DNA of 64,000 nt from Candidatus Zixiibacteriota bacterium (lineage in GTDB: Bacteria; Zixibacteria; MSB-5A5; GN15; PGXB01): positions 1 to 64,000 of the forward strand of contig JAPLUR010000107.1 of NCBI GenBank assembly GCA_026397505.1, written 5' to 3'. Below the pieces are notes generated by a model. The model worked only from the letters and a program-made list of their open reading frames with translations, did no database searches and was not told where the DNA came from. Shown here piece by piece: positions 44,138 to 52,741 of this stretch; position 1 is the first letter of the stretch; every line of letters begins with the position of its first letter. Position numbers and translations under genes: made by a program.

Positions 44138-45019
44138 TCAATCCAATTTCCATCGCCGGTGCGTCCACATCCATTGCTCCGGGTGGCGTCGAATGAGCGA
44201 TTCAATGCAGGCGGTGTAGGCCAGGGTCATTTCCCGAATATCTGTTTCGGTGTCGCCGGTTCCGGGAGGATAGATAGGGGGAAGGACAATGACATGATGC
44301 CGGTTGTAACCCTTGCGGACCAAACCTCCGGCGATAATCGGGCAGCCGATTTTAACCGCAAAGGCGGCGGGACCTTTTGGCGTGGATGCCGGTCTTCCGA
44401 AAAATGGAACCACGACTCCGCCCGAGGCGGCATGTTGATCCGACACCACCGCCACCATCCGGTTGGCCCGAAGCGATTTTATGACATGACGGCTGGCGAC
44501 CCCAATCGGGATAATGCCCACCCCCAGTGATTTTCGAAACGAAATCAGGAGTTCATCGACATTCTGGTTATGTTGCTGGCCGACGAGGAAGTCAAGCGGA
44601 TATCCGCAGGCGGCCGCCCATCCTCCCAGAAGCTCCCAGTTGCCGAAATGCCCGCTGATTAGCATCGCCCCCTTTCCCTCCCCCAGCACCCGGTCGATAT
44701 GTTCTTTTCCCTCATGAGTAATCATGGAAAGAATTTTTTCTTTATCGAGGACCGGCTGGCGAGCGAATTCCACCGACGTGCGGGCGACATTGATGAAAAC
44801 CTCCTTAGTAACGATGCGGACGCGGGTTTCATCCATTTCATCCTTAAAGGCGAGGCGAAGATTATTGCGGGCGATGCGGCGGCGGGAGACAAACGCCAGA
44901 TAGGCGATTTTTCCCAGCGCAATCGCCATCCAGTCGGCCAGTCGTCCGGGAAGAATCTGCACCGTCCGGGTCAGAACCCAGACCGCGGCATATTCAAGCC
45001 CATGGCTTATCTTCATCAT
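44138..45019 (-). CDS. LpxL/HtrB-family lipid A acyltransferase
   Basis: About 293 residues from ATG 45019 (MMKISHGLEY; ATG 45016 is equally possible after AAAGGAAG). The longer frame to 45082 overlaps the upstream gene too far. It contains the acyltransferase motif SGHFGNWELLG (catalytic His plus Glu), DQHAASGGVVVPFFG and the C-terminal RHPEQWMWTHRRWK, which are family hallmarks. It adds a secondary acyl chain to a lipid A precursor at the inner membrane. This supports a lipopolysaccharide-bearing outer membrane. It overlaps the preceding peptidase gene by about 26 bases. Confidence 0.9.
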   Translation of the reverse strand: MMKISHGLEYAAVWVLTRTVQILPGRLADWMAIALGKIAYLAFVSRRRIARNNLRLAFKDEMDETRVRIVTKEVFINVARTSVEFARQPVLDKEKILSMITHEGKEHIDRVLGEGKGAMLISGHFGNWELLGGWAAACGYPLDFLVGQQHNQNVDELLISFRKSLGVGIIPIGVASRHVIKSLRANRMVAVVSDQHAASGGVVVPFFGRPASTPKGPAAFAVKIGCPIIAGGLVRKGYNRHHVIVLPPIYPPGTGDTETDIREMTLAYTACIESLIRRHPEQWMWTHRRWKLD

Positions 45020-45956
45020 CTTCCTTTTCCGGATGGCCGGAATCCCCATAGTCGAAATCGCGCGATTCAAACCGTTCCTCATCCTCCCATTTTCGGAAAT
45101 ACCGCTTGCGTCTCAGGAAATAAAGGATGAAGCCGACCAGCACGACCAGGGCCAGAAAAATCCAGAGATAGATGGTGTCGGCAAAGAAAGTCATCAGGTT
45201 GTACCTTTCTTTGAGATATTTGTCAAATTCTTTTTCAAAGTCGCGATAACCGGAGCCGGTCGCGGTCATCAGGGCCTGATCGACCGTTTTCCGCTCTTTT
45301 AAACTATCCAGAAAGATATTAAACGTCTCCGGGCCGTAACTGTCCAGAAGATATTTCACGGCCAGATATGATTCGGCATAAGCGGTGGCCGCTTTCCCCT
45401 CCGAGAAGCGGTTCAACTGCTCAATTTCGTCCAGCGGCACCAGGGAGCCGAAAATCACGGCGCGGGTTATGGAGATATTTTCGGGCCAGCCCCACTCGGC
45501 GGAGACAAACATCGCCAATCCCTCATCAACCCAGCGCGGCGGCGGGACATGACGCAAGCGATTTTCCAGAGCCAGGTGAGCATATTCGTGCTGGAGGAGT
45601 TCCCGCAGCGACCGTCCGACTCGAAAATGAGCCGGAGATTTAATGGCGATAAGGCGGCGGTACGGCAGGGCGGCGGCGGCGCCCCAATCGGGAAAAGCGG
45701 CGCCGACGACAGCTTTGAAATCCTCCGGGCTTTCGGGAATATATACGGCCGGGCGGTAATCGAGCGAATCGCCCAGGATATTTATCAGGCGGTTACGGGC
45801 ATTGGAGAAAGCGGAATCGGCAATCTGGACAAAGAGCGGGTTCTGAAAATGATAGACGAAATTCTCCCGCTGAATGACGGTGGTGGTATCAACGGCATAT
45901 GTAAGAGCGCCGAATAGGAGAAGGAAGCCGAGAAAGAACCTGAACGCCGCTTTCAT
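44994..45956 (-). CDS. Membrane-anchored peptidase MA-like zinc metallopeptidase
   Basis: A 320-residue protein from ATG 45956, which opens into a signal sequence (MKAAFRFFLGFLLL). It has a gluzincin motif H123-E-Y-A-H127 (LLQHEYAHLALEN) and a downstream Glu in PRWVDEGLAMFVSAEWGW, matching the peptidase MA family. A C-terminal TM helix (about 255-277) is followed by an Arg/Lys-rich then acidic cytoplasmic tail. The catalytic part is thus periplasmic and membrane-tethered. It is first gene of an operon with LpxL-like, GT9 and PfkB genes, so an envelope-processing role is likely but unproven. Confidence 0.82.
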   Translation of the reverse strand: MKAAFRFFLGFLLLFGALTYAVDTTTVIQRENFVYHFQNPLFVQIADSAFSNARNRLINILGDSLDYRPAVYIPESPEDFKAVVGAAFPDWGAAAALPYRRLIAIKSPAHFRVGRSLRELLQHEYAHLALENRLRHVPPPRWVDEGLAMFVSAEWGWPENISITRAVIFGSLVPLDEIEQLNRFSEGKAATAYAESYLAVKYLLDSYGPETFNIFLDSLKERKTVDQALMTATGSGYRDFEKEFDKYLKERYNLMTFFADTIYLWIFLALVVLVGFILYFLRRKRYFRKWEDEERFESRDFDYGDSGHPEKEDDEDKPWA

Positions 45957-46102
45957 AAGGCTAAGATAGGAATTTCGTATCAATTTCAAAGCGCTCTCTC
46001 AAGAAAAATATCTACTTGACGAAACAGGATAAAGTGGATATCTTATAATGTGAAAGCCGGAAATCCGGGCTTTCGAAACTCTTTGCCATTTTAAGATTGA
46101 AG

Positions 46103-47524
46103 ATGAATAAACTGCCGGCTCACATTGTGCCCGCCGCCCTATCTCTGGCGGCGATAATCTGCCTGGGAACCTCAACGGCATTCCCGCAGGGAAGTGGTAT
46201 CTGTTTTACCGTGGATTCTCTCGCTCCCTGGGCGGCTAATGCACCGGCTCCGATGGATATCGGGCTCTATTACGGCGGTGATACGGTCGCCAATCAGGCG
46301 GCGCATCCCGATATTGAGTACTGGCCTGACGGTTTTGGCCCGAGCGGCGGTGCGACAGTTATCGGTGTCAATCGTGACGGTTATCCGGACACGCTGGTCG
46401 CCTCGGTTGATACTCCCCGCTGGAAATACTGGATGGTGTTCACCCCTTATGTTTACAGCCAGGCAGTATATGAAGACCCCACTATCCGGGTGAGCAATGT
46501 CAAAGAGAGCGGCTGGATTCGCCCCTATGCGATCGGGGATGATCCCACCGACAGCAGCGAGAATTCCGACACGGTTTGGGTAAACGATCCGATATATAAT
46601 CATTATCACTATCTTGAAAACGGGCATTGTTCGGATCCGGAGTTTGCCTATGTCCCCGAAGAGGGACGCCTGTATGTACTGTTTAGAACCTCGAGCAAGT
46701 ATACTCACAGAATCTATGTCAAAGCGATTTTCTCGACCGATGGTATAAGCTGGGACGAGACGCAGGCTTTCAACCTTGTGGTCAGCGGGAGTCCGGAACC
46801 CTGGAAGGCCTGGGGTCTGGTCTCGCCTTCGGTTTGCCGCGATGCCCCGAACCGCTGGCGGATGTGGTTCGTCGACATTCCCGGCCTCAATCAGGGGTCT
46901 CAGATAATCGAGCTGACCGCGCCCAGACTGGACACCACCTGGACGGCAGTGGATACCTGCCTTATTGCGCCGCCCGATACGACGCTTCAGATCTGGCATA
47001 TCAAAGTTGTCCGTTCGCCGATGGATAGCGCGCTGTACCTTCTGGCGACAATCAACGGCATAGGCTCGACGAGTGCCGAGAAGTTCGGTCAATTTCTGTA
47101 TGTCAGCCAGTCGGGGGAAGTGTGGAACATGGTAGGGGAAATTCTTCCCAACGGCCCACCGGGCGCCTGGGATAACGAGACCTACCGTTCGACATTTCGG
47201 TTCGAGCGCATTAACGGCAGATGGACCATGCCGATATGGTACACCGGCGCGCGCGAAATTGGGCCGGGCCTCTCAGTCTGGGGGATTGGATTTACCACCG
47301 CCTATCCGCAATGGGTTCAGGGGGATGTTAATGGCGACTGCAGAATCAACATTTCCGATATCACTTTTCTGATCAACTACCTCTACAAAGGCGGATTGCG
47401 GCCGGATGCCAGGTTTCTCGCTGATATTGACGGCAACTGCCGGGCTAATATTCAGGACATAACTTATCTGATTTGTAATCTCTATAAGGGTGGTCCCGCG
47501 CCTCGCGCCGGTTGCGAGCAGTGA
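46103..47524 (+). CDS. Secreted dockerin-tailed protein with propeller-like domain
   Basis: A 473-residue exported protein from ATG 46103. A signal peptide spans about 1-29 (ending AFPQ). The body (about 35-405) has repeated aromatic/Asp strands (FAYVPEEGRLYVLFRTS, AIFSTDGISWDE, WRMWFVDIPG, FLYVSQSGEVWNMV), resembling the five-bladed propellers of GH43/GH32-type glycosidases, although I see no clear catalytic triad. The C-terminus has two dockerin repeats (VNGDCRINISD, IDGNCRANIQD) with Cys substitutions. Carbohydrate binding or hydrolysis is possible. Not recognised beyond that. Confidence 0.75.
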   Translation: MNKLPAHIVPAALSLAAIICLGTSTAFPQGSGICFTVDSLAPWAANAPAPMDIGLYYGGDTVANQAAHPDIEYWPDGFGPSGGATVIGVNRDGYPDTLVASVDTPRWKYWMVFTPYVYSQAVYEDPTIRVSNVKESGWIRPYAIGDDPTDSSENSDTVWVNDPIYNHYHYLENGHCSDPEFAYVPEEGRLYVLFRTSSKYTHRIYVKAIFSTDGISWDETQAFNLVVSGSPEPWKAWGLVSPSVCRDAPNRWRMWFVDIPGLNQGSQIIELTAPRLDTTWTAVDTCLIAPPDTTLQIWHIKVVRSPMDSALYLLATINGIGSTSAEKFGQFLYVSQSGEVWNMVGEILPNGPPGAWDNETYRSTFRFERINGRWTMPIWYTGAREIGPGLSVWGIGFTTAYPQWVQGDVNGDCRINISDITFLINYLYKGGLRPDARFLADIDGNCRANIQDITYLICNLYKGGPAPRAGCEQ

Positions 47525-48041: not shown

Positions 48042-48080
48042 CAAAAAACCAGGAGCACCCGCCGCGGCGGGCGCGCCTGG
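48042..48080 (-). terminator. Strong Rho-independent terminator of the four-gene operon
   Basis: Read on the minus strand, a long interrupted stem (CCAGGCGCGCCCGCCGC / GCGGCGGGTGCTCCTGG) is followed immediately by TTTTTT. It begins 2 bases after the stop codon of the toroid-protein gene. Confidence 0.85.
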
Positions 48081-48081
48081 C

Positions 48082-49032
48082 CTACAAAACTAAAGTCTGT
48101 TGCTTAAGATCACCGAGGAGATAGCAATTGAGTGCATGGGCGGCCATTGACGTGCTCATCAGGTGCATACAATCGCCATAGGGGGTATAGTCGCCAATAG
48201 TACGCTCCTTTTGTTCAGGCACCAGCAAAACAGGGGACGACGGCCAACTACTATCATGCAACTGCCATTCAAGTAATATCATAACTTGACGTACGCTAAA
48301 ATCTGTTTGTATTTTGCCAAGGCTTATTGCCGCCATCAAATTGTTAGCCGCTTCAAAGGGAGAACCTGGTTCTTTTAGACTGATTAATGACTCCCATGTG
48401 CTATTACCTATGTTGGACGGAATGCCGCCGCTCGCAGATAAAAATTCCAGATTCCGTGCTGTAGAGTAAGAATCTATTGTCCACCAAAATGACGGCCAGA
48501 GCCCATTCGCCTTCCAGATATCCAAACATGCCTGTCTTACTCGGTTTACGATTGCGGTGTCAGCCTCTACTGCAATTAGTGCCATACCTACAACAGGCGT
48601 AACATCTGCATGTTCCAAAGCCCAAGAGCCAAATCGTTTGATGTCTAGAAATGTTCGCGCCGCCCCGCTTGAGCTTAAGTAATGCTTTAATGTTGCGGCT
48701 GCGTCCATTCCGAAATGACCACCCATTTTGGCAAGAAATCTAAAAGCCCAAGCGGTAGAATCTGCGTCGGTTGCGGTTTCTCGGTTATAACCCCAACCTT
48801 TCGCGCCACGTATGGAATGCAGAGCGTTCATGGCTTTATTCAATGCCATAGTGAAGTCCTGTCGATTGGGAGCGGATGCTAGAGACCAGCCAACACAAGC
48901 CGTGGTCCAGGCTTCGCTAGCCCCAGAGGGAAGCGAGTAGTCCCGCCAGAAGCCCTCCTGGTTCTGGCAACTAAGCAGGAAAGTCTGCGCTTTAGAAATT
49001 GAATCCCTCAAGTTATGTATTCTTAAATCCAT
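48082..49032 (-). CDS. Alpha/alpha-toroid (terpene cyclase/prenyltransferase-fold) protein
   Basis: About 316 residues from ATG 49032; ATG 49044 and the longer frame to 49101 are alternatives that overlap the upstream gene more. Repeated helical hairpins with QW-like elements are visible (NQEGFWRDY, GAKGWGYNRE, ANGLWPSFWW, LHDSSWPSSP), as in squalene-hopene and class II diterpene cyclases. The segment ATDADSTAWAF matches a D-x-D-(D/S/T)-T-A acid motif that protonates isoprenoids in class II cyclases. It is shorter than a typical two-domain cyclase, so it may be a single-toroid enzyme or a non-catalytic relative. Last gene of the operon with the prenyltransferase-like gene. No signal peptide. 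Confidence 0.6.
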   Translation of the reverse strand: MDLRIHNLRDSISKAQTFLLSCQNQEGFWRDYSLPSGASEAWTTACVGWSLASAPNRQDFTMALNKAMNALHSIRGAKGWGYNRETATDADSTAWAFRFLAKMGGHFGMDAAATLKHYLSSSGAARTFLDIKRFGSWALEHADVTPVVGMALIAVEADTAIVNRVRQACLDIWKANGLWPSFWWTIDSYSTARNLEFLSASGGIPSNIGNSTWESLISLKEPGSPFEAANNLMAAISLGKIQTDFSVRQVMILLEWQLHDSSWPSSPVLLVPEQKERTIGDYTPYGDCMHLMSTSMAAHALNCYLLGDLKQQTLVL

Positions 49033-50086
49033 GCGGTTTGACATAAGTAGTGATATGCTCCAATCCCTCAACGAATCCAAGGCTGATAAATTCGATTTCA
49101 AAACCCCCGAAGCACTCTGTTATATCCTCAAGAAATCCATTCAGTTTCTGGTCATCCAGATTCCAGTATCTCACGAGATCGATGATCAGCGGAATAAGAA
49201 GATAGAGTTTATCTCTTTTTATTAACTGGCAAGATATGTCAATTTTTGTTCTTTTGATTTCTGGCTGCATCAGCCGCCCTTTGTCTAAAATGAAGTCGTA
49301 ACCGAGTGTGACGCTTTGTTGAATGAAAGGTCCGAAAGCATCGGTAAAAGACCTACATACAAAACCAACATCGCGTTCGGAGCCATGTAATTTATTAATA
49401 CCGGCTTTCAGCATGGATTCATGATTTGGATGTTGCACTCCGACATATAGTCTTATGGCATGAATCTGTTCGGATATGACTAGACCCAATCCCACTGGTA
49501 TCGCATAAAGTGATATTTGCTCAAATGACATTTTAAGTTGTGCCGCAAGAGCACCTTCACTAAACCAGGTTAAGACATCGGCCAGACGTTGCCACCGACA
49601 AAGTGCCTCGTCATAGCGAAGATTCAAATAAAGACGCAATTGGACATCATCTTTCGATAAATCACATCCCAGCCATATTCCGCCCCATAGTTTCCGAGTA
49701 GTATCGGCGTCCCAAGGGAAAACACGAGAAATAACAGCGTTGAGGTCGTGCAGGACAAATTCCCATCCCAACTTGTGGAGGAGTTCATCAACGACCCTGA
49801 GTGATATGTTTATCTGCTCCAAGACGGTAATTCCCAGTCCGCCAGGTTCAACCAGCATGCGGAATGGCACCACATCCGCATTTCTCGTAGATTTTAGAGA
49901 ATATACAACCGGTGTACCATCAAGACACATAGATGCCCGACGGAGCTTGGCTTTTCCCTGAAAATCATTCATTAATGAATTAATTAAAGCCCTATGGAGA
50001 AGATGGCAGTTTTCAGGCAAGCCATCTTCTCCATACAATTCCGAAGTCCGTCGATCAAAAAATTTCCGGAATCTTTCGTCAGCCAT
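49013..50086 (-). CDS. Unknown protein with weak ABBA/DMATS prenyltransferase resemblance
   Basis: A 357-residue cytoplasmic protein not confidently recognised. It has repeated blocks of a helix pair followed by two strands, with strand motifs such as GCDLSKDDVQLRLYLNLR, GLGLVISEQIHAIRLYVGV and DVGFVCRSFTDAF. That alternation and the G-x-D-L...(K/R)-(L/V)-Y pattern recall ABBA-fold aromatic or peptide prenyltransferases (DMATS, LynF/PatF type), which attach isoprenyl groups to aromatic side chains. The overlap with the cyclase-fold gene makes the idea coherent, but by eye the match is weak. The ATG shares a base with the glycine-rich gene's stop (TAATG), so the two are translationally coupled. 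Confidence 0.5.
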   Translation of the reverse strand: MADERFRKFFDRRTSELYGEDGLPENCHLLHRALINSLMNDFQGKAKLRRASMCLDGTPVVYSLKSTRNADVVPFRMLVEPGGLGITVLEQINISLRVVDELLHKLGWEFVLHDLNAVISRVFPWDADTTRKLWGGIWLGCDLSKDDVQLRLYLNLRYDEALCRWQRLADVLTWFSEGALAAQLKMSFEQISLYAIPVGLGLVISEQIHAIRLYVGVQHPNHESMLKAGINKLHGSERDVGFVCRSFTDAFGPFIQQSVTLGYDFILDKGRLMQPEIKRTKIDISCQLIKRDKLYLLIPLIIDLVRYWNLDDQKLNGFLEDITECFGGFEIEFISLGFVEGLEHITTYVKPHGFKNT

Positions 50087-50847
50087 TACGGCGTTTGCTC
50101 AAATATATCCACAGTTGCTGGTGATCCCGGCAGACCGGGATTCCCAGGATCTCCAGCAATACCATAGGAATCGCCCCGGTCGCCCCGGTCGCCCCCGGGG
50201 TTTCCAGAACCACCATTTCCGCCCCCGCCGGGAGGCCCATTTTCACCTCTAAGGCCGCCGGTCCCGCCAGCACCGCCAGAAAGGCCCGAGCCCGCCGGGT
50301 CAGCAACAACATTCGGAAATATGGCACCGGAATCATAGAGGATTACTATATGACCGCCGCTGCCGCCACGCCCACCACGGCCACCATCCCCACCATTACC
50401 TCCATTGCCGCCATTTCCGCCGTCGCCTCCACGCCCTTGAGCAGCATGCGGTTCACAGCCCTCGCCACTGCCACCAGCTCCGCCATCACCACCGTGCTGA
50501 CCTTGCTGTCCGGCACCACCTGTGCCGCCATTGCCACCGTAGCCGCCGTTTCCCCCCTTGTAGTTCAATGTTATTGTCCCAGTTAGAAATGTACTATCTA
50601 TGGTTACATACGCACCATTAGTTCCAGCTGAACCCTCACCCCCATTTTGGCCGTTCCAACCCGGCGCGCCTTGTCCTCCATTTCCGCCGGCAGCACCATT
50701 TGTCGGCGACTCATCTCCCCAGGTGCTGCATTCAGCAGCCCTGCCCGCAGCACCGTTACTGGCTATGGTCGCGGGATCCGGTGCGAGGCCGTTCGCACCA
50801 TGAGCCCCATTAACTCCATCCACTCCAGAGCCTTCGAACATCGCCAT
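50086..50847 (-). CDS. Glycine-rich repeat protein (PGRS/collagen-like)
   Basis: A 253-residue protein starting MAMFEGSGVDG after a perfect AAGGAGG. Roughly half the residues are Gly, in GGNGGxGGxGG runs (about 95-170 and 190-225), with a short collagen-like stretch near the end (GDPGNPGLPGSP). Two non-glycine beta-strand segments interrupt it (about 79-95, YVTIDSTFLTGTITLNY; about 168-180, HIVILYDSGAIF). Two Cys residues (AECST, GEGCEP) stand out. No signal peptide is visible. It could be a structural beta-helix or polyglycine-II protein, or a substrate of the downstream enzymes. The strand opposite has long open frames caused by GGN codons; these are shadows. Confidence 0.75.
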   Translation of the reverse strand: MAMFEGSGVDGVNGAHGANGLAPDPATIASNGAAGRAAECSTWGDESPTNGAAGGNGGQGAPGWNGQNGGEGSAGTNGAYVTIDSTFLTGTITLNYKGGNGGYGGNGGTGGAGQQGQHGGDGGAGGSGEGCEPHAAQGRGGDGGNGGNGGNGGDGGRGGRGGSGGHIVILYDSGAIFPNVVADPAGSGLSGGAGGTGGLRGENGPPGGGGNGGSGNPGGDRGDRGDSYGIAGDPGNPGLPGSPATVDIFEQTP

Positions 50848-50874
50848 GATTAACCTCCTTAATTCATATTGTTA

Positions 50875-51528
50875 TTATACGTGTTTGATCTGATAAGAAT
50901 GCAGCTTTGTATTGTTGCCGAGCCTAATGCACCCCGAACCGTATACTATGATATTGGTTATGTATACAGCGGCGAAGTTCCTGAATATGACGACTTCGTT
51001 CGGGCAGACAATTAGAGTATCAGCAACAAATGTGTTTAGTCGCTTGGCGCGCTCCAGCATATACTCTATCACACCCTTATATGGGATCTTTGATACTATC
51101 TTTTTGTCTACATACCCAAAAAGCAGGTTATGAGCCATATCCTTTACCGCTATTCTTTCGTCAGGCTCCAATTCCTTCAATGACTCTATGTTTCGTGTAG
51201 GAAGATGATGCATTTGAACACAGGGCAAGCGATAACAGGGTTTTTCTTTATCGAAAACCCGGTTTGGCACACCGGCCAGTTCTTTAAGTTCGTCGATATT
51301 TTTGGGTGATATTGTACGAATATATCTGTCCAACTCCCCGACATGAGGATCAAATTTCCTGATTGGGTCCAGGTAAACAGGCCCTTTGATAACATTGCAA
51401 ATCGGATTCAGCGGCTTCAACTCTGTCGGTTTCATCCCAAATATCTTCAGCTTATCTTGTAACCACTCGGGTTTCGGTGAAAGCAGATGCTTACGATGCT
51501 CGTGAAGAAAATCCTTCTGTTCTTTCAT
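50875..51528 (-). CDS. Unknown protein, first gene of the four-gene operon
   Basis: A 217-residue protein not recognised. ATG 51528 (MKEQKDFLHEHRKHLL) is preferred to the upstream in-frame ATG at 51555 because GGAGG sits 6 bases before it. The N-terminal half is charged and Pro-rich (KPEWLQDKLKIFGMKPTELKPLNPI, DPHVGELDRYIRTI). The C-terminal 50 residues are strand-rich (TLIVCPNEVVIFRNFAAVYITNIIVYGSGCIRLG), resembling rungs of a beta-helix or a cupin-like roll. Four or five Cys residues are present. No signal peptide or TM segment. The operon promoter must lie in the 673-bp spacer upstream. The next gene begins 27 bases after its stop. Confidence 0.7.
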   Translation of the reverse strand: MKEQKDFLHEHRKHLLSPKPEWLQDKLKIFGMKPTELKPLNPICNVIKGPVYLDPIRKFDPHVGELDRYIRTISPKNIDELKELAGVPNRVFDKEKPCYRLPCVQMHHLPTRNIESLKELEPDERIAVKDMAHNLLFGYVDKKIVSKIPYKGVIEYMLERAKRLNTFVADTLIVCPNEVVIFRNFAAVYITNIIVYGSGCIRLGNNTKLHSYQIKHV

Positions 51529-52228: not shown

Positions 52229-52741
52229 ATGAGTCTGCTTAGTCATAACGTATTGGTGCTCAATCAAAACTATGAACCGCTTTCGGTTTGTTCGGCCCGA
52301 AGAGCGATCGTTCTACTTTTCCTGGGCAAAGCCGAAATGATCGAAACCTACGACGGGGTCAAAATCCGGTCGATCAGCCGGTCATTCCCGATGCCCTCGG
52401 TAGTGCGGCTCGACCGCTATATCAAAGCCCCCCGCAAAAGAATCCTTCTGACGCGCAAAAATGTCCTTATCCGAGACGGCCATACCTGCTGCTACTGCGG
52501 GGCGGTCAAAGGGCCGATGACGGTCGACCATATTATCCCCAAGAATATGGGAGGCGCCGACACCTGGGAAAATCTGGCCTGCGCCTGCGACCGCTGTAAC
52601 AACATGAAAGGAAACCGGCCGCTCATGCAGGCCGGGATGAAACTTCTGCGCAAGCCGACCCGCCCCAATCATATCACCTATATCCAACGCTTTGTGGGGG
52701 TCACCGACAACCGCTGGAAACAATACCTTTTCATGGAGTAA
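52229..52741 (+). CDS. HNH endonuclease
   Basis: A 170-residue protein of the stand-alone HNH family common in bacteria. The N-terminal VLVLNQNYEPLSVCSARRAIVLL is typical of this group. The HNH fold follows at about 84-135: the zinc knuckle CCYCG pairs with CDRCN, and the catalytic part is TVDHIIPKNMGG with NLACACDRCNNMKGNR. Its cellular role is not established. It lies 2 bases upstream of trpS and is probably co-transcribed. Confidence 0.9.
   Translation: MSLLSHNVLVLNQNYEPLSVCSARRAIVLLFLGKAEMIETYDGVKIRSISRSFPMPSVVRLDRYIKAPRKRILLTRKNVLIRDGHTCCYCGAVKGPMTVDHIIPKNMGGADTWENLACACDRCNNMKGNRPLMQAGMKLLRKPTRPNHITYIQRFVGVTDNRWKQYLFME

Follow-up and report, generated by a model that had tools for sequence, protein, structure and literature searches.

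A four-gene operon of Candidatus Zixiibacteriota as a proposed system for attaching cyclised terpenes to a glycine-rich protein

Within a window of 64,000 nucleotides (the whole stretch of DNA analysed here) from contig JAPLUR010000107.1 of a Candidatus Zixiibacteriota bacterium, four genes on the minus strand form a compact operon. In the order of transcription, as called by inspection of the sequence and its open reading frames (ORFs), they encode a conserved protein (P4), a glycine-rich (Gly-rich) protein, a prenyltransferase (PT), and a terpene cyclase (TC). On balance, we think it probable that the operon is a protein-terpenylation system, which would place a cyclised terpene on a tryptophan (Trp) of the Gly-rich protein. 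This reading is based on the fold and profile matches of PT, the MstE-like character of TC, the coupling of PT with TC, the linkage of P4, Gly-rich protein, and PT, a sole motif Trp in the proposed acceptor, the precedent of the enzyme NctPC, and the presence of polyprenyl synthases (two) in the host. Tentatively, the full arrangement may be a horizontally moving P4-Gly-PT-TC operon, common to Zixibacteria and Acidobacteriaceae, that installs a polycyclic terpenoid on an internal Trp of a Gly-rich protein of ~220-250 residues, where it would serve as a rigid sterol-like anchor. The features of the operon are the following:

50875..51528, minus strand: P4, a conserved protein of 217 amino acids (aa), first gene
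50086..50847, minus strand: Gly-rich protein of 253 aa, proposed terpenoid acceptor
50719..50721, minus strand: codon of Trp43 in A-E-C-S-T-W-G-D-E, proposed modification site, from an alignment of eight homologues and their Trp counts
49013..50086, minus strand: PT, predicted ABBA/DMATS-type prenyltransferase of 357 aa
48082..49032, minus strand: TC, predicted MstE-like monodomain class II terpene cyclase, 316 aa from the ATG at 49032, from a phmmer match to MstE
48760..48768, minus strand: Asp-Ala-Asp of the DADST motif in TC, from an alignment with MstE that includes its mutant entries
48055..48074, minus strand: terminator-like hairpin of 8 pairs, 7 of them G-C, at the operon end

By its modelled fold and family profile, gene 3 is a divergent ABBA/DMATS-type prenyltransferase, with prenyl transfer as its predicted activity. 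Its AlphaFold2 model, built from a seven-row alignment (predicted TM-score, pTM, 0.73; predicted local distance difference test, pLDDT, 66), has ten strands as five hairpins alternating with helix pairs, which gives a ten-strand barrel of five bb-aa units. The top Foldseek matches are PriB, IptA, and the Streptomyces 5-DMATS (E ~2e-11, TM 0.6-0.7), CymD is also found, and all 50 matches listed are DMATS-type or other ABBA prenyltransferases. A profile of the 11-member PT family matches IptA over its whole length among Protein Data Bank (PDB) sequences at 2.9e-29 and seven further such sequences below 1e-20, and the Pfam family PF11991 matches two members of the family, at best with 1.9e-6. The window PT has an identity of ~15% to PriB, IptA, SCO 5-DMATS, and CymD, and searched alone against Pfam, NCBIfam, and PDB sequences it stays below all thresholds, a weak DMATS match being the best (E 0.064). 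Used alone it also found no relative in 84,980 species, where a scan with the cyclase alignment did find relatives, and a single-sequence search of the genomes of the phylum missed the PT of genome G068, the query being too weak. A family profile made without the window protein recovers it as the sole match, at 8.7e-20, among the 557 frames of the window. Tyr153, Tyr214, Tyr348, and a basic residue at position 212 (K/R) are invariant in the 11 members, while Lys281 and an acidic residue at position 80 (E/D) are each kept in 10. We take the tyrosines and basic positions to fit the tyrosine shield and the diphosphate-binding bases of the ABBA family, and position 80 presumably fits the acidic residue which binds the indole N-H in DMATS enzymes.

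By its sequence, gene 4 is an MstE-like monodomain class II terpene cyclase in which the predicted catalytic Asp is kept. TC matches MstE, the merosterolic acid cyclase (PDB 6sbb-6sbg), by phmmer at 1e-17 over residues 27-300 as a single domain, and the two share the single-domain class II organization and the DADT/S acid motif. The DADST of TC aligns with the DADT of MstE; the second Asp would be the catalytic acid, because the entries 6sbd and 6sbe change the aligned residue from D to A or D to N. The motif is kept in the PT-linked cyclase homologues examined. A tree of 15 cyclases groups eight PT-linked cyclases with a Deinococcus protein (support 89/87), whereas MstE, which works in a small-molecule pathway, lies on the other side with cyclases from Bacteroidales, Riflebacteria, Cytophagales, and locus L018. 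The branch of the window cyclase is long, and a single clade of PT-linked cyclases is neither rejected (approximately unbiased test, p-AU 0.42) nor proven. The first-pass annotation, made by eye, had guessed an ABBA/DMATS-like pattern for 49013-50086 and, from DADSTA, a class II cyclase for 48082-49032, and it had proposed structure prediction as a check. Both guesses are borne out, the former by the AlphaFold topology, Foldseek, and the family profile, the latter by the MstE match and the aligned catalytic Asp; unrelated folds, which would have refuted them, were seen for neither gene.

The proposed acceptor belongs to a family of conserved proteins with GGX repeats and, in an alignment of eight homologues, one conserved non-glycine motif, C-x-W-x-G-D. 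The motif reads AVCNWYGDD in L007, AVCNWDGDD in L020 and L035, AECHWYGDD in L036, ARCHWYGDS in L037, AECHWDGDD in L038 and L039, and AECSTWGDE in the window. Its Trp is the sole Trp in 7/8 homologues; since the Gly-rich proteins of L020 and L035 contain zero Tyr and zero His, the motif Trp is their only plausible aromatic nucleophile. Because the structural kin of PT act on Trp and the sole Trp is conserved, this residue, Trp43 in the window, is the best candidate and would be the modification site. The protein has no match in Pfam, NCBIfam, or PDB sequences; a profile made without the window recovers it at 1e-21 among the window frames. The Gly-rich gene of L036 (8180-9064) shows a frame change near the C-terminus relative to L038 and L039, which appears to be an assembly error or a frameshift.

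The gene order is conserved well beyond the window. P4, Gly-rich protein, and PT follow one another in 8/8 P4-bearing genomes (2 Zixibacteria, 6 Acidobacteriaceae), with TC after PT in five, two of which have PT and TC fused. A cyclase search of the phylum of the window found one close relative, G068, whose contig carries P4, Gly-rich protein, PT, and TC in the order of the window. As the PTs of the window and of G068 are barely alike pairwise, the shared order is of long standing and not the result of recent copying. Among 132 genomes of this phylum, the Gly-rich family, and P4 together with it, occur only in G000 and G068, and both genomes carry the PT-TC pair. A P4 profile searched against 150 Acidobacteriaceae genomes gave six carriers, all with the P4-Gly-PT order; in L035 and L040 (the genome of L020) PT and TC are fused, L020 having P4, Gly-rich protein, and then a single ORF for PT and TC, while in L037 PT and TC are separate genes and a cytochrome P450 (P450) comes next. 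The other three, L036, L038, and L039, have P4-Gly-PT with no TC seen adjoining PT, which suggests that PT belongs with P4 and the Gly-rich protein and that cyclisation is an optional addition. Directly after PT in L038 (506-796) and L039 (9791-10048) lies the gene of a small CxxC (DCC-like) protein, with a methyltransferase-like gene adjoining, as read by eye; tailoring in these loci may fall to this protein instead of the cyclase. The arrangement of the operon is not due to chance, as its order recurs in seven other genomes and profiles free of the window recover PT, Gly-rich protein, and P4 (the last at 6e-4 among the window frames). Indeed, the co-occurrence in unrelated genomes which the first-pass annotation had proposed to look for exists, in Zixibacteria and Acidobacteriaceae.

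The operon is rare, with one carrier (G132 itself) in a 396-genome sample of the phylum of G132. A species-wide scan with the cyclase gave 13 loci. In Nitrosomonas, the acidobacterium fen_180, and Pseudonocardiales, PT lies directly before the cyclase (E 7e-25 to 3e-13 with a two-member profile). In Actinocorallia it lies after the cyclase and its match is weaker (the L010 protein gave 4e-8), a strong score being obtained only with a profile that includes that PT. PT and TC are neighbours in Zixibacteria, Acidobacteriota, Nitrosomonas, Pseudonocardiales, and Actinocorallia. From plasmids, the sole find was a distant Deinococcus cyclase with no PT recognised alongside, and the viral contigs searched gave nothing.

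The surroundings of these other cyclases are diverse. L009 (6426-10942), L011, L013, and L016, from Nitrosomonas and Pseudonocardiales, have three conserved proteins (~271, 302, and 241 aa) directly before PT-TC, none of them with a Pfam family, and in Pseudonocardiales a P450-like gene follows TC. The ~271- and 302-aa proteins carry the conserved Trp motifs ELWC and PDPWNGC and could be acceptors. L012 (3557-12246, Actinocorallia) resembles a cluster for a peptide natural product: by eye, a large LanB-like protein, a radical SAM-like one, and a metallo-beta-lactamase-like one are encoded ahead of TC and PT. MstE-type cyclases lie beside PqqD-like and asparagine-synthase-like genes in L014 (5789-10948, Riflebacteria) and beside ~100-aa proteins resembling NHLP leaders in L015 and L017 (Bacteroidales). 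L018 (5352-9602), on a contig labelled Thaumarchaeota in which no PT was found, has an MstE-type cyclase, a 385-aa protein of no assigned family, and two Gly-rich proteins. The glycine parts of the latter match the Gly-rich family of the window with an hhalign probability of 98%, a value inflated by low complexity. The idea, formed by eye, that P4 and their N-terminus are one and the same module found no support (hhalign probability 0.2%).

The signals described by the first-pass annotation are all present: 27 bases separate P4 from the Gly-rich gene, TAATG combines the stop of the latter with the start of PT, PT and TC share 20 bases, AAGGAGG and GGAGG precede the starts of the Gly-rich gene and of P4, respectively, and a single strong terminator closes the operon. 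An Rfam search of the operon region gave no match. The four genes have a GC content at third codon positions (GC3) of 0.40-0.48, compared with 0.61-0.68 for eight flanking genes. The further remark that the operon is more AT-rich than its flanks is right for GC3 and for PT and P4 (overall GC 0.43); TC is barely lower (0.48), and the Gly-rich gene does not follow it (0.61). The operon is bordered by genes at 44138-45989 on one side and by an HNH gene at 52229 on the other, beyond which lie trpS, scpA, scpB, and rluB (named from reading the proteins). In L050 and L051, of the same family, a homologue of 44994-45989 adjoins the HNH gene with <200 bases between, an empty-site arrangement, and the window holds ~6.2 kb extra at this place. 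This inference is based on two comparisons, the remaining relatives examined having other neighbours or a contig end. The low GC3 together with the empty site in two relatives indicates that the operon was acquired, as had been suggested. The extra stretch also includes the gene 46097-47524, whose product is secreted-looking with dockerin-like repeats (GDVNGDCRINISDITFLINYLYKGG).

If the operon is a protein-terpenylation system, PT would use a polyprenyl diphosphate supplied by the polyprenyl synthases of the host, with a chain of probably C15 or C20, and would join this chain to the indole of a Trp of the Gly-rich protein, Trp43 in C-S-T-W-G-D being the likeliest. The second Asp of DADST in TC would then protonate the chain at its distal end, presumably after attachment, giving fused rings. 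The product would be a Gly-rich protein bearing a polycyclic terpenoid, and P4 may be its dedicated partner, for assembly, presentation, or as a second product component.

Two-step prenylation and cyclisation on Trp is already known chemistry. As described in a 2026 review, PMC13290415 (citing Hubrich et al. 2024, doi 10.1016/j.chempr.2024.07.026), the enzyme NctPC joins, by fusion, an ABBA PT domain with an MstE-like cyclase; it attaches a geranylgeranyl (C20) group to Trp in a ribosomal peptide, after which the chain is cyclised. The view of the first-pass annotation that nothing of this composition had been described needs correcting, since NctPC pairs both enzyme types on ribosomal peptides. 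The likeness covers the two enzyme types, adjacent in the window and fused as in NctPC in L020 and L035, and would extend to the Trp acceptor proposed here; the enzymes of the window, however, are separate genes, and P4 and the Gly-rich protein belong to the operon, NctPC being compared by description only. The small leader-bearing precursor of NctPC-type systems was not found in the operon, where P4 and the Gly-rich protein have no Pfam or NCBIfam match and only a non-conserved 15-codon ORF lies upstream; since this feature was tested and is absent, the operon is not placed within the NctPC system of ribosomally synthesized and post-translationally modified peptides (RiPPs). The cyanobactin prenyltransferases KgpF, PagF, and LimF and the enzymes ComQ/PalQ also prenylate residues of ribosomal peptides, the former mostly with short chains and the latter with an isoprenoid-synthase fold, but as described in PMC13290415 and PMC10853753 they act on small peptide precursors and have no cyclase partner. 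No description of cyclised terpenes on proteins rather than short peptides was found in the literature examined.

Several observations weigh against protein terpenylation. The nearest characterised PTs (PriB, IptA, SCO 5-DMATS, and CymD), which share the ABBA fold and are the nearest structures and profile matches to PT, prenylate free Trp with short units, and we know of no link between them and a class II cyclase. The PT model is of moderate quality (pLDDT 66), and that of the Gly-rich protein, whose conserved GGX repeats might pack as polyglycine II helices, is unusable (pLDDT 42). The motif Trp of the window is shifted one residue later than in the other seven homologues, and a second Trp (Trp64) is present. 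Moreover, other PT-TC pairs adjoin unrelated proteins or peptide-type clusters, so that the acceptor class is not fixed across the family, and that the terpenoid sits on the Gly-rich protein is what we infer. The preference of PT kin for free Trp, the small-molecule pathway of MstE, and the P450 after TC in L037 and the Pseudonocardiales loci would all suit the making of a small meroterpenoid, in which PT prenylates free Trp or another small aromatic, TC cyclises it, and P4 and the Gly-rich protein serve to carry or store the compound or as a surface structure for it. We consider this unlikely: both in the window and in L007 the neighbours of the operon include no further gene for biosynthesis, transport, or resistance, PT keeps its linkage to P4 and the Gly-rich protein even without TC, and the sole conserved Trp of the Gly-rich protein is left unexplained.

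The acceptor might also lie elsewhere in the operon. P4 is the first gene, a common place for a RiPP precursor, and TC relatives occur in peptide-type clusters (L012, L014, L015, and L017), which would fit P4 as acceptor or as a large RiPP precursor, a leader-like protein from which a modified segment is released. This is improbable in our judgement: P4 has no conserved Trp, that of L037 has none at all, searches of Pfam, NCBIfam, and PDB sequences gave no match and no NHLP-type leader, and neither protease nor exporter adjoins the gene. We give very little credence to the upstream ORF MKKTVLWSVSNPYGG, just before P4, as the true peptide substrate. It contains Trp and follows a Shine-Dalgarno-like TGGAGG, yet nothing like it precedes P4 in L007 or L020, on which account it was rejected, and its 15 codons are well inside chance expectation. 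The first-pass annotation had named the Gly-rich or the first protein as acceptor; the conserved sole Trp gives the Gly-rich protein the better support as the putative one.

If protein terpenylation by this operon is correct, an acceptor protein of ~250 residues without a leader peptide would be new, and terpene cyclisation would reach a larger protein, beyond small molecules and short peptides. PT and cyclase would then be freestanding, separate enzymes for the Trp lipidation of proteins. The homologous loci form a natural comparative series that runs from no cyclase through a separate and a fused cyclase to a cyclase with a P450 and would make the steps separable.

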